45,694 nucleotides of DNA from a virus. Positions 852 to 3,404 of the stretch are shown one piece after another. The number at the start of each line of letters is the position of its first letter. Positions within the stretch are counted from its first letter, which is position 1. A program made the position numbers and the translations under genes. The stretch is from the IMG/VR virus record IMGVR_UViG_3300048011_000414, positions 1-45,694 of that record. One strand, written 5' to 3'. Below the pieces are notes generated by a model. The model was not told the DNA's origin and made no database searches. It was given only the letters and a program-made list of their open reading frames with translations.

Positions 852-928
852 TCCCCGATAGCTCAGTTGGTAGTAGCAATTGACTGTTAATCAATGTGTC
901 GCTGGTTCGAGTCCAGCTCGGGGAGCCA
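852..928 (+). tRNA. tRNA-Asn(GTT)
   Basis: Acceptor TCCCCGA (852-858) pairs with TCGGGGA (918-924). The anticodon loop is CTGTTAA within an ATTGA/TCAAT stem. The T-arm GGTTCGAGTCC and an encoded CCA (926-928) are present. The D-arm carries one extra base compared with typical tRNA-Asn, leaving a 3-bp D-stem. Confidence 0.93.
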
Positions 929-932
929 AGTT

Positions 933-994
933 AATACATACTCTGCTTACTGTATAGCAGAAGCAACAGATCTGATAAACTGGGAGTGTGTATT
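933..994 (+). ncRNA. Structured spacer RNA between tRNA-Asn and tRNA-Ser
   Basis: The 62-base spacer is closed by an 11-bp stem: AATACATACTC (933-943) pairs with GAGTGTGTATT (984-994), with one G-U pair. Inside it are TGCT/AGCA (944-947 with 956-959) and the palindrome CAGATCTG. It does not fold as a tRNA. It begins 4 bases after one tRNA and ends 3 bases before the next, so it could be a stable processed RNA or a processing element. No known family is recognised. Confidence 0.45.
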
Positions 995-997
995 ATA

Positions 998-1089
998 GGA
1001 GAGTTGGCTGAGTGGTCGAAAGCAGCAGGTTGCTAACTTGTCGTACGTTTTATAGCGTACCGTGGGTTCGAATCCCACACTCTCCGCCA
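998..1089 (+). tRNA. tRNA-Ser(GCT)
   Basis: Acceptor GGAGAGT (998-1004) pairs with ACTCTCC (1079-1085). The anticodon loop is TTGCTAA. The long class II variable arm has a GTACG/CGTAC stem. The T-arm GGGTTCGAATCCC is present and CCA is encoded at 1087-1089. Confidence 0.95.
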
Positions 1090-1092
1090 TAT

Positions 1093-1168
1093 GCGGGTAA
1101 GCACATGGGTTGTGTCGCCGGCCTTCCAAGCCGTGCTGAGTGGGGTTCGACTCCCCCTACCCGCTCCA
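1093..1168 (+). tRNA. tRNA-Gly(TCC)
   Basis: Acceptor GCGGGTA (1093-1099) pairs with TACCCGC (1158-1164). The D-stem is GCAC/GTGT and the anticodon loop CTTCCAA. The T-arm GGGGTTCGACTCCCC is present and CCA is encoded (1166-1168). The anticodon stem has one mismatch at its base. Confidence 0.92.
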
Positions 1169-1203
1169 TAATCATAACAAGTAACAATGAAAGGTTACAA
1201 CAA

Positions 1204-1446
1204 ATGAGCGCATATGTACAGGAAGCAATTCAAGTATCAGGTATTAATAGAACAAATCTAGTGGCAGCTTGTGCTTACTTGATTAGAACAAAGCAAGCAA
1301 CCGGACAGCATGATGCGATTCAGCAAATTGCATCTGGTAAGTTTGATGCTGACGAACTGGAAGAACAAATGATTCGTTCGTTCCAAACTGAACTTCCTGT
1401 TGAAATAGTTGCCACAGATGAAGACTACGGTGACAACGAAGACTAA
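1204..1446 (+). CDS. Small acidic hypothetical protein
   Basis: 80 residues from ATG 1204, preceded by an AAAGG-like ribosome-binding sequence (about 1190-1195). The frame is open further upstream, but only through the tRNA-Ser and tRNA-Gly genes, so longer starts are not credible. The N-terminal half looks helical (AYVQEAIQVSGINRTNLVAACAYLI). The C-terminus is strongly acidic, ending in several Asp/Glu residues. No family is recognised. It sits between tRNA genes with two further tiny genes downstream, a usual setting for small host-takeover proteins, but no function can be assigned. Confidence 0.6.
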   Translation: MSAYVQEAIQVSGINRTNLVAACAYLIRTKQATGQHDAIQQIASGKFDADELEEQMIRSFQTELPVEIVATDEDYGDNED

Positions 1447-1481
1447 GTAGTAAACTTAGAAAGTTAGAAAGGAGTAGCATT

Positions 1482-1628
1482 ATGCAGACAAAAGAAGAAC
1501 GTGATGCTATTATTAAAAATGCCGTAGAGGCAGCAAGAGCGCATACAGTAGAACTAAATGCAGGTCCTATGAAGCACACATTGCAACGTAAAGCCGCTTT
1601 AGAGAAAAAAGCAAGTAGACGCAGATAA
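1482..1628 (+). CDS. Small basic helical protein, 48 residues
   Basis: ATG 1482 follows a clear Shine-Dalgarno (GAAAGGAG, about 1468-1473). The product is 48 residues, lysine- and arginine-rich and predicted helical, ending in KKASRRR. The strong ribosome-binding site and the position directly after the 1204 gene support a real gene. The basic tail suggests nucleic-acid or ribosome contact, which is inference only. No family is recognised. Confidence 0.55.
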   Translation: MQTKEERDAIIKNAVEAARAHTVELNAGPMKHTLQRKAALEKKASRRR

Positions 1629-1636
1629 TTACTTTT

Positions 1637-1711
1637 ATGAATAATTGTCCAGAATGTAAAACGGAACTAGGGCATGATGATTTTTGTCCTAGTTGCAGAG
1701 TAAGAAGATAA
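1637..1711 (+). CDS. 24-residue zinc-ribbon microprotein
   Basis: ATG 1637 to TAA 1711 encodes MNNCPECKTELGHDDFCPSC followed by RVRR. Two CPxC knuckles (CPEC and CPSC) separated by 12 residues are enough to form a complete minimal zinc ribbon. The ORF lies between a 48-residue gene and tRNA-Thr and is flush against the tRNA (1713). No strong Shine-Dalgarno precedes it, so translation could depend on coupling to the gene ending at 1628. The perfect zinc-ribbon spacing is the main reason to call it. Confidence 0.45.
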   Translation: MNNCPECKTELGHDDFCPSCRVRR

Positions 1712-1712
1712 C

Positions 1713-1788
1713 GCCGGTATAGCTCAGTTGGTAGAGCAGTTGCCTTGTAAGCATCAGGTCCCGAGTTCAAATCTTGGTGCCGGCACCA
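1713..1788 (+). tRNA. tRNA-Thr(TGT)
   Basis: Acceptor GCCGGTA (1713-1719) pairs with TGCCGGC (1778-1784), with one G-U. The D-arm is GCTCAGTTGGTAGAGC, the anticodon loop CTTGTAA, and CCA is encoded (1786-1788). Confidence 0.95.
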
Positions 1789-1792
1789 TTAT

Positions 1793-1891
1793 ACACTAGC
1801 CCGAAAGGGACGGCGATAAGAAGGAAGTCCAGTGCATAGCAGGATTTGGTTGGTCGACACATTGGAAATTACCTACTCTTTGTGTTAGTGT
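1793..1891 (+). ncRNA. Candidate structured RNA downstream of tRNA-Thr
   Basis: ACACTA (1793-1798) pairs with TAGTGT (1886-1891). It encloses a CCC-GAAA-GGG GNRA-tetraloop hairpin (1800-1809), and an alternative GGAC/GTCC pairing (1808-1811 with 1827-1830). No ORF covers the segment. The terminal stem is only 6 bp, so support is moderate. No RNA family is recognised. Confidence 0.3.
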
Positions 1892-1897
1892 TTTAAG

Positions 1898-1920
1898 CGC
1901 CTGTGGTGAAATTTGGTAGA
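1898..1920 (+). other. tRNA-Leu 5'-half-like remnant
   Basis: The sequence GCCTGTGGTGAAATTTGGTAG resembles the acceptor and D-arm of a tRNA-Leu. No matching 3' acceptor strand, anticodon arm or T-arm follows; the sequence runs instead into the hydrolase-like frame. It looks like a tRNA gene cut by recombination. Confidence 0.35.
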
Positions 1921-2137
1921 CAGTTTAAAGATTAAAATTAAGTGTCCTTGGCTGCAAGTGGTTAGTACGACAGGAAATGTACCTTGGCACTTTGGTGAGA
2001 ATGACGGTGTTGTTACACTAAAGAGCATGACAGCAAGACAGGACATGGAATACGAGTACGTAAGCTATAATCATTACGAAGTTTTAATAGCAAAAGAAGT
2101 TGCAGAACTTGTACAAAATAGGTTGACAAGTTCCTAA
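1913..2137 (+). pseudogene. C-terminal fragment of an alpha/beta hydrolase
   Basis: The frame is open from TTG 1913 to TAA 2137. It contains GENDGVVTLKSMTAR followed by VSYNHYEVLIAKEVAELV, which matches the C-terminal end of alpha/beta hydrolases: the acidic catalytic residue region and the final catalytic His in NHYEV. About 65 residues of that fold are present. The N-terminal half, including the GxSxG nucleophile elbow, is missing, because the frame begins inside a tRNA-Leu-like sequence and there is no ribosome-binding site. The reading is therefore a decayed, truncated gene at a recombination junction. A very short functional protein cannot be excluded. Confidence 0.5.
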
Positions 2138-2150
2138 AATACTGTATAAT
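2123..2150 (+). promoter_or_regulatory. Sigma70-like promoter
   Basis: TTGACA (2123-2128), a 16-base spacer and TATAAT (2145-2150). It overlaps the end of the hydrolase fragment and drives the coiled-coil gene at 2178. Confidence 0.85.
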
Positions 2151-2177
2151 AAACACATAAACAAAGGAAAAAGGCAA

Positions 2178-2741
2178 ATGAACATTACACTACGCAAAGC
2201 AAATGCTGTACAAGTCAGCATCAACGATATGATCAAAGGTTTGAGCTTTGACACATCAGTTCGCATTAATGAGTTTGAGGACCATAACGAACAGATCAAT
2301 GCTGTGCGTACGGTGTTCGACACTCACTGTGCCACTCGCGCAAAACTTGCAGGCGCTCTGTTTGAGATCCGCAAGGCAGTGTCTGTAGCAAACGCTGAAG
2401 CAGGCATCAACGACATGCTGGCAGATGTTGCTATGCTGGAGAAAGAAATCCAGTTTAACAACACGTTTGCAACACAGAACGCTCGTCTAAGCGATGCAGT
2501 GATTGAAGGCAAGATTGCTAAAATCAAAGCCGCAGACAGCGATCGTTATGCATACGGCAATAACGATGTAACAACTACTGTCTTCACTAAAGAAGAAGTA
2601 GATGGGTTTAAGCGTACTGTTGCTGACTTGAAGCGTCAGAAGCAGAAGCTACAGGATACTCTGCTTGAGCTAAACGTTCAGACAGAGATTGAGTTAGATG
2701 AGGAAACAGCTCGTTTCTTGGAGCGAGCAGACATCCTCTAA
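2178..2741 (+). CDS. Coiled-coil hypothetical protein
   Basis: 187 residues from ATG 2178, with Shine-Dalgarno AAAGGAAAAAGG just upstream and a consensus promoter 28 bases before the start. The sequence is mainly helical, with long charged heptad-like segments around residues 55-110 and 140-175 (for example VADLKRQKQKLQDTLLEL). Its opening, LRKANAVQVSINDMIKGL, resembles a conserved protein of unknown function found in many phages. It is slightly more GC-rich than its neighbours. The strong early-type promoter suggests an early role. Function is not known. Confidence 0.75.
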   Translation: MNITLRKANAVQVSINDMIKGLSFDTSVRINEFEDHNEQINAVRTVFDTHCATRAKLAGALFEIRKAVSVANAEAGINDMLADVAMLEKEIQFNNTFATQNARLSDAVIEGKIAKIKAADSDRYAYGNNDVTTTVFTKEEVDGFKRTVADLKRQKQKLQDTLLELNVQTEIELDEETARFLERADIL

Positions 2742-2744
2742 GGT

Positions 2745-2875
2745 TATAGCATACTAGGCTCGTGAGGCCCGCAAGCCGAACCTTGTTCGAGGCTTAAGGA
2801 TCGTGATACTAGTAAAAGGTAAACATAGTTTGTCTACATCGGTCGGCAAGAGAATAGTAAACCTAGTATGCTATA
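2745..2875 (+). ncRNA. Candidate structured RNA with perfect 14-bp terminal stem
   Basis: TATAGCATACTAGG (2745-2758) is an exact reverse complement of CCTAGTATGCTATA (2862-2875). Inside, AAGCCGAAC (2773-2781) pairs with GTTC-GA-GGCTT (2785-2795) as nine base pairs with a 2-base bulge and a 3-base loop. The remaining interior is G/A-rich and could hold one more helix. The size (131 bases) and closed ends resemble stable phage RNAs such as T4 species C and D, but no family is recognised. It starts 4 bases after the 2178 gene stops, so it may be cut from that transcript. Confidence 0.55.
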
Positions 2876-2883
2876 TTAGTTTT

Positions 2884-2912
2884 GGTGGTTATGCGTTGGA
2901 AGCGTAAATCAC
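2884..2912 (+). ncRNA. Stem-loop, about 11 bp
   Basis: GGTGGTTATGC pairs with GCGTAAATCACC, with one bulged A and two G-U pairs, around a GTTGGAA loop. It lies immediately downstream of the 2745-2875 structure and may be part of the same transcript. Confidence 0.4.
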
Positions 2913-3082
2913 CCAGAAGTAAGTAAAAGATTAGGATGGACAAACGTGTTGTTACGGTACTGGCTTTACGCTGTACAAAAACAACGAATAGCTCAATGAC
3001 ACTTGAAATGTCTCCGTGCTTGTATGCTCCAGATTAATAGAACACTTGCACTTTGATTGCTGGAAATAAACGAGTCTTCTGC

Positions 3083-3105
3083 AGATTGCTTATTGTAGAT
3101 TGCTT
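3083..3105 (+). repeat. Two tandem copies of AGATTGCTT, 14-base period
   Basis: Identical 9-mers at 3083-3091 and 3097-3105 sit in a 14-base repeat unit (TGCAGATTGCTTAT / TGTAGATTGCTTGT). There are only two copies, in non-coding sequence; this is not a CRISPR. Confidence 0.4.
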
Positions 3106-3212
3106 GTGAGGCGAAGCGGAATGCGGACCTCAATGCACATTGCACAGTTCATTACTTGTTTACTTGCTTCTGTTTTTATTTTAAAAATCTATCTAAATTG
3201 TCAAAGTAATGG

Positions 3213-3241
3213 TTGACAGATGATAAATAAACGTGTATAGT
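3213..3241 (+). promoter_or_regulatory. Sigma70-like promoter of the 3245-3404 RNA
   Basis: TTGACA (3213-3218), 17-base spacer, TATAGT (3236-3241). The spacer also contains GATAAATAA (3222-3230), a late-element match, so the unit could be used both early and late. Confidence 0.8.
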
Positions 3242-3244
3242 ATA

Positions 3245-3404
3245 AACATACTAAACAAAAGGAATACTAACGTGTTAAGATCATTACAACAGTCATCATT
3301 ACAGTGCTGGTGCCCGTCACAAGGAAGGGGTATGTCTTAACGCGACTTTTAAAAAAGTTATTTAAGATAAGCCCCTAGCACTAATAATGTTAGGGGCTTT
3401 TTTT
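3245..3404 (+). ncRNA. Candidate small RNA unit (or leader peptide transcript)
   Basis: A complete short transcription unit of about 155 bases: promoter at 3213, terminator at 3369-3404. CGTGTTAAGA (3271-3280) pairs over ten positions with TCTTAACGCG (3335-3344), one G-U, enclosing a loop with CCCGTCACAAGGAAGGGG. A second palindrome ACTTTTAAAAAAGT follows. A 22-codon ORF (GTG 3272 to TAA, MLRSLQQSSLQCWCPSQGRG then MS) has an AAAGGA at proper distance, so translation is possible. The ORF start lies in the left stem arm and its stop in the right arm. Non-coding sRNA and regulated short peptide are both open. Confidence 0.5.
3369..3404 (+). terminator. Rho-independent terminator
   Basis: AAGCCCCTA (3369-3377) pairs perfectly with TAGGGGCTT (3391-3399), followed by a run of T to 3404. 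tRNA-Trp starts on the very next base, so downstream tRNAs depend on read-through or on another promoter. Confidence 0.92.

Follow-up and report, generated by a model that had tools for sequence, protein, structure and literature searches.

Two uncatalogued families of structured RNA, very probably encoded in the tRNA cluster of a phage genome

The tRNA cluster of a viral DNA, IMG/VR virus record IMGVR_UViG_3300048011_000414 (45,694 nt, hereafter the window), very probably encodes two real, conserved and mutually unrelated families of structured RNA that are so far uncatalogued. We call them D-RNA, a multibranched RNA of about 290 nt, and S, a 64-nt three-way junction. Both lie in the region studied here (positions 852-3404), and the window carries T4-like genes, such as topoisomerase II, together with eight tRNAs identified by ARAGORN. 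A first-pass annotation had proposed five strongly paired non-coding elements among these tRNAs. Covariation, matches to leave-out models and genome-wide single-copy matches sustain the proposal that structured RNAs are encoded here, except for the segment at 1793-1891. Against 200 shuffled sequences per element, four of the five structures are more stable than the shuffles, with 1793-1891 again the exception.

As that annotation had noted, the sequences match nothing recognised. At the gathering score, tRNAs alone match Rfam in the window, and relaxing the search to E values of up to 5 adds only tRNA-derived or chance sub-threshold matches; none of the five elements matches a family. D-RNA and S are without an Rfam family at both gathering and lenient thresholds, in the window and in relatives, and neither is described in Rfam 15 or in the searchable literature, which mostly excludes subscription journals. 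A BLASTN comparison of this region with cultured phages returned one tRNA and chance matches, and nothing else.

D-RNA, a conserved multibranched RNA

D-RNA consists of a 5′ hairpin (P0), a long P1/P2 closing stem and four arms. The elements in the window are as follows.

2884-3172, plus strand: D-RNA, about 290 nt, the P0 hairpin and a multibranched domain closed by P1
2884-2913, plus strand: P0 hairpin; in homologues GGTGGTT/AATCACC, GGTAGTT/AACTACC and GCCAGTT/AACTGGC; z = -2.89
2914-2927, plus strand: P1 5′ strand of the closing stem, partner 3159-3172; double changes in 11 of 13 counted pairs
2936-2941, plus strand: P2 5′ strand ATGGAC, partner GTTCAT at 3147-3152; ATRGAC/GTYYAT versus TCRAGA/TCTTGA
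2948-2985, plus strand: P3 hairpin; GTTGTT/AACAAC, TAATAC/GTATTG, TTAGGC/GCCTAA and TGTGGC/GCCGCA; z = -2.33
2997-3013, plus strand: P4 hairpin with a conserved CTTGAAA loop; double changes in four of five pairs
3019-3074, plus strand: P6/P5 stacked arm (CTTGT..ACGAG; TCCAG..CTGGA); CCAG/CTGG, CTGG/CCAG, CTAG/CTAG and CCAA/TTGG
3107-3132, plus strand: P8 hairpin (TGAGG..CCTCA), missing from Caulobacter phages
3159-3172, plus strand: P1 3′ strand, followed by TTTTTATTTT

The hairpin at 2884-2912 and the pairing at 2948-2985, listed by the first-pass annotation as separate elements, are both present, but they are P0 and P3 of this single RNA, whose 14-bp P1 stem (2914-2927/3159-3172, including one G-U pair) had been overlooked. 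The same annotation saw no overlap with a credible open reading frame (ORF), and this holds up. A 33-aa ORF at 2936-3037 is interrupted in the relative L001, where it reads MDNRVVTCF-stop, and the longest open stretches over D-RNA vary in frame and length among homologues.

Relatives of the locus were reached by two routes. L001 was found through the protein encoded beside D-RNA, a 187-aa product with 78% identity between the two, and the relatives G2 and G3 (the latter being contig L012) through DNA patterns. In all, D-RNA has 18 distinct homologous sequences in IMG/VR. Window and L001 are about 80% identical over 2904-3177, with helices that vary yet stay complementary, and the plan P0, P1, P2, P3, P4, P6/P5 and P8 recurs in the minimum-energy folds of most of 14 sequences. 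When the window's structure was applied to a structure-blind MAFFT alignment of 14 sequences, 80.0% of cells were paired, against 39-48% with slid partners, and double changes occurred in 31 of 52 pairs, against 13-17. The covariation score in the structure-blind alignment was 0.383 (at most 0.156 when slid; reached by 0 of 500 shuffles). A structure-guided alignment raises the canonical cells to 666 of 692 and the compensatory pairs to 44 of 52, and mapping it on the protein tree gives 98 double-compensatory events, compared with 2-11 for slid partners. Because the guided alignment is itself set by the structure, the structure-blind alignment and the leave-out model carry more weight. That covariance model, trained without the window and L001 and with the P0 hairpin outside it, matches the window at 2914-3172 (152.8 bits, E = 5.6e-38) and also L001 (E = 2.4e-39), both with exact boundaries. 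The ten virus records in the initial search have a single copy each.

These results also bear on the simplest alternative, that AT-rich spacer DNA has formed these stems by chance. It describes 1793-1891 well; for D-RNA and S it is refuted by the covariation and the leave-out matches, and as an account of the stems we give it negligible probability.

The gene next to D-RNA and its candidate promoter are these.

2123-2150, plus strand: sigma-70-like promoter TTGACA-16-TATAAT, a 12/12 match by consensus only, 5′ of the protein gene and D-RNA
2178-2741, plus strand: gene for a 187-aa helical protein, the neighbour of D-RNA wherever the flank of the locus is complete

Alignment with the protein retrieved 22 loci at 41-78% identity, nearly all with D-RNA beside the gene, and a protein-independent DNA pattern added four further D-RNA contigs, all of which match the model (156-182 bits). 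Divergent versions are likewise found at this position in phages of Caulobacter and Brevundimonas that are in culture. In CcrColossus the sole model match in 280 kb lies in the 284-nt gap after the orthologous gp272, at 201299-201582 of JX100810, and CcrPW also carries D-RNA. Closing stems of 13-15 bp lie at the equivalent place in CcrPW and in Brevundimonas phage Domovoi; the Domovoi stem, of 15 bp, sits in the equivalent gap, and the D-RNA model misses this phage. Some phages with D-RNA thus have tRNAs beside it and others do not, and since the Caulobacter and Brevundimonas phage loci have no annotated adjacent tRNAs, its constant neighbour is the protein gene and not the tRNAs. GTDB genomes gave no match to either the 187-aa protein or the RNA pattern. 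The protein itself has an AlphaFold model (predicted local distance difference test score 89.6) and no informative match in Pfam, PHROG or the PDB.

A conserved non-coding module of about 200 nt, GGACAGRGTAACARCTCRGT...CTRGACACTTTAT, lies directly 3′ of the 187-aa gene in six relatives (L012, L024, L026, L032, L033 and L034). It is absent from the window and is a candidate third RNA family.

On another reading, D-RNA is no separate RNA but merely a structured 3′ untranslated region, which serves the mRNA of the 187-aa gene in cis and also as its long-range terminator. D-RNA begins 142 nt past the stop codon in the window and about 20 nt past it in several relatives, and a U-run follows P1 in most homologues, as such a role would have it. 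The order is reversed in L033, L047 and L051, however, where D-RNA lies upstream of the gene, and in L024, L026 and their group it comes about 400-500 nt downstream, after a tRNA-Met. An elaborate domain with invariant unpaired UUG triplets, described below, also exceeds what a terminator needs, and we consider a purely cis-acting role rather unlikely.

UUG heptads and possible roles of D-RNA

The invariant columns of the D-RNA alignment are largely unpaired UUG triplets spaced 7 nt apart, which sit in the junctions and in one loop.

3046-3055, plus strand: P5 loop, two UUG triplets one heptad apart (at 3046 and 3053), with UUGNNNNUUG invariant in A3 and enrichment at d = 7
3086-3102, plus strand: P6-P8 junction, three UUG triplets at heptad spacing (at 3086, 3093 and 3100), in invariant columns
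3140-3142, plus strand: invariant UUG 5′ of the P2 3′ strand

Among nine representatives, 35 UUG pairs are found at a distance of 7 nt, where 2.5 are expected and 300 shuffles give at most 9; the second-ranked triplet at this distance, TGT (13 pairs), overlaps the UUG repeats. In CcrColossus and CcrPW the array extends to as many as six heptads that keep an exact 7-nt register, those of CcrColossus being TTGTGGGTTGCGCGTTGTCCGTTGTAGCTTGCCCTTTG. The placement of the triplets in loops and junctions suggests repeated protein contacts.

We tentatively favour, from these sequence patterns, a role for D-RNA as an RNA that arrays protein. It would be transcribed along with the 187-aa gene or the upstream tRNA, either the promoter at 2123 or the tRNA operon being its source, and its transcript would then be trimmed to the ends of P1. 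The product would function as a particle together with protein, its UUG heptads forming a row of equal binding sites. The likeliest binder would be several copies of one small RNA-binding protein, either the neighbouring phage protein or a captured host protein.

Several points weigh against this view of D-RNA and its locus. Putative protein binding by the UUG array is read from its spacing alone, and Foldseek finds no informative fold for the model of the 187-aa protein (best match 3kdq, of unknown function, E = 0.03). Adjacency to the gene is partly a matter of ascertainment, the 22 loci having been found via the protein, and two of the four protein-independent loci end where the gene would sit. 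The guided alignment and its tree count lean towards structure, and P8 and P3, with 44% and 62% of cells paired in the structure-blind alignment, are poorly aligned unguided.

A different possibility is that D-RNA molecules assemble with one another into a protein-free particle, as an ornate RNA of the kind represented by GOLLD and ROOL, which form RNA-only nanocages (PMC12286853). Like these nanocage RNAs (PMC12286853), D-RNA is phage-borne, multi-helical and tRNA-adjacent; GOLLD (RF02032) too is a large structured phage RNA of large-phage tRNA clusters, located, as is D-RNA, near phage tRNAs. GOLLD itself is present, at another locus, in tRNA clusters of relatives at 198-207 bits (L012 11669-12133, minus strand; L028 5863-6326; L032 5555-6018; L033 397-858), including the clusters of G2 and G3. 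In the window it has no match, either at the gathering score (150 bits) or at E up to 5. The two RNAs coexist in some genomes and differ in sequence and fold; D-RNA, at about 290 nt, is smaller than GOLLD, whose match takes up about 465 nt for the modelled domain alone. D-RNA likewise differs in size and fold from ROOL, an ornate bacterial and phage RNA (PMC12286853) whose Rfam model has no match in the window or the relatives searched. With no Rfam match of its own and no kissing-loop palindromes identified, D-RNA is in our estimation unlikely to form such a particle.

S, a probable portable linker RNA

The second family is represented in the window by a short element between two tRNAs.

932-995, plus strand: S element, a 64-nt three-way-junction linker RNA between tRNA-Asn and tRNA-Ser

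Its 11-bp closing stem, proposed earlier as a closed spacer at 933-994, is present, and the segment folds at -19.7 kcal/mol (z = -3.75), with none of 200 shuffles as good. A strict pattern found S in 10 contigs and a loose pattern gave about 16 distinct sequences; the remaining loose-pattern matches lack the flanking stem and were rejected as chance. Over 15 sequences, 96.7% of cells are paired, against at most 47% when slid, and 13 pairs show double changes, against 0-2, so that the covariation looked for in relatives supports the stems of S as it does those of D-RNA. A leave-out covariance model matches the window at 932-995 (85.6 bits, E = 4.5e-19). The unpaired core, AUCUGAUAAA and GCAAC, is highly conserved. 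Because the ten S-bearing records searched lack D-RNA, the two are independent families.

S occurs between tRNA-Asn and tRNA-Ser, between an ORF end and tRNA-Ser, between a terminator and tRNA-Trp, and as the intervening segment of phage permuted transfer-messenger RNA (tmRNA). It fills this segment in L061, whose permuted alpha-type tmRNA gene spans 2837-3184, and in L062, both genes being confirmed by Rfam, with RF01849 matching an S-bearing phage tmRNA at 113 bits; in L067, L073, L082 and L091 the tmRNA context was judged from the flanking sequence. Permuted tmRNAs of marine phages are already known (PMC9004378). In phage tmRNAs S thus takes the place of the intervening segment of permuted alpha-tmRNA (RF01849, RF04321), and it occurs outside tmRNA as well. 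We rejected a host-tmRNA origin: the intervening segments of three alphaproteobacterial tmRNAs (Paracoccus, Sinorhizobium and Methylobacterium) are not S and give no match to the S model.

Judged from its sequence and settings, S is probably an RNA-processing linker. As a removable spacer it would guide precursor processing to the 3′ CCA of the upstream RNA and to the mature 5′ end of the downstream one. Alternatively, S could work in the manner of theta ribozymes, cutting the precursors of tRNA and tmRNA by self-cleavage. These HDV-like (hepatitis delta virus-like) ribozymes lie next to phage tRNAs (PMC10879173) and so provide a precedent in phage tRNA clusters (PMC10879173); like S they are small and phage-tRNA-associated, with a likely role in processing. 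S also has a highly conserved unpaired core and always stands beside RNAs that need separation. It differs from theta ribozymes in its conserved bases and in forming a covarying three-way junction rather than an HDV-like core, it matches no Rfam ribozyme model, and no cleavage site is evident. We therefore regard self-cleavage as distinctly less probable than not, and keep to S as a linker.

Taken together, D-RNA might be the RNA half of a phage ribonucleoprotein, with UUG heptads read by an oligomerising protein as a modular code, and S a portable excision cassette that phages place at any site where two mature RNA ends need to come apart, permuted tmRNA included. We put forward this combined picture as a speculative one and somewhat doubtful.

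Other structures in the cluster and relation to T4

The two remaining elements of the first-pass annotation fared differently.

2745-2875, plus strand: element X, 131 nt, with a perfect 14-bp closing stem; z = -2.16, 6 of 200 shuffles as good
1793-1891, plus strand: segment without support as an RNA; its drawn fold has an 8-bp terminal stem and a GAAA-type loop

The closure of X is there as described. X has a single homologue, in G2/G3, where the closing stem differs in length and by a few compensatory changes but is kept; the inner 7-bp hairpin is kept too, showing two G-U exchanges and a single compensatory change. X is missing from L001. On this thin sequence evidence X is a probable RNA. 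The 6-bp closed segment with a GNRA hairpin at 1793-1891 can be drawn, but it was rejected as an RNA for want of support: z is -0.04, 94 of 200 shuffles fold as well, and no homologue was found.

Relatives with an upstream module have other elements at the position of X, two of them with a tRNA-like T-arm. In these two, L032 and L034, the element is tRNA-like, with an acceptor-like closure and a T-arm (GGGTTCGATTCCC), and a long insert replaces the D and anticodon arms.

The annotation had also suggested a counterpart of the stable RNAs of phage T4, species 1 and 2 (rnaC and rnaD), called there species C and D. The analogy of place stands: these RNAs too are small, stable and encoded among the tRNA genes of a phage, and the genomic setting is equivalent. 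A tRNA-like T-arm is moreover shared by rnaC and the elements of L032 and L034, although X of the window has none. Homology does not stand. Searched with the D-RNA and S models, the tRNA region of T4 gives no match at E values of up to 10, sequence similarity to the window RNAs amounts to chance words, and rnaC and rnaD lack UUG heptads. The T4 RNAs are not homologous to D-RNA or S, and descent of any of the window RNAs from a common ancestor with them is very improbable.

Further features were seen around the cluster. A tRNA-Gly (TCC) at 1090-1166, the ninth tRNA of the window, was overlooked by ARAGORN because its D-arm is unusual. An apparent 5′ half of a decayed tRNA-Leu lies at about 1898-1925, where L001 holds an intact tRNA-Leu (TAG). 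Immediately 5′ of tRNA-Trp, positions 3213-3404 hold a promoter and an intrinsic terminator, together with a short ORF (MLRSLQQSSLQCWCPSQGRGMS); L001 and G3 have comparable 22-23-aa Cys/Trp ORFs with a terminator at the matching position, and the Rfam Thr_leader model matches weakly (27.7 bits). The arrangement resembles an attenuator that controls phage tRNAs through a leader peptide. Of 40 inter-tRNA spacers in the relatives, 15 have terminal stems of unusual strength (p < 0.05), for example L018 2167-2377 and L028 3970-4195, and may contain further RNAs or unannotated tRNAs. The survey is suggestive only, because at least one of the 15 is an unannotated tRNA.

The tRNA genes of large phages are surrounded by extensive non-coding tracts given over to RNAs, most of them unannotated, and two such RNAs are now families with covarying structures and search models. 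The presence of D-RNA in cultured Caulobacter and Brevundimonas phages makes its expression, protein partners and deletion phenotype immediately testable, and the 7-nt spacing of its UUG triplets makes an explicit prediction about its binder that mutation can probe. S gives access to the way in which phages free tRNAs and two-piece tmRNAs from precursor transcripts.

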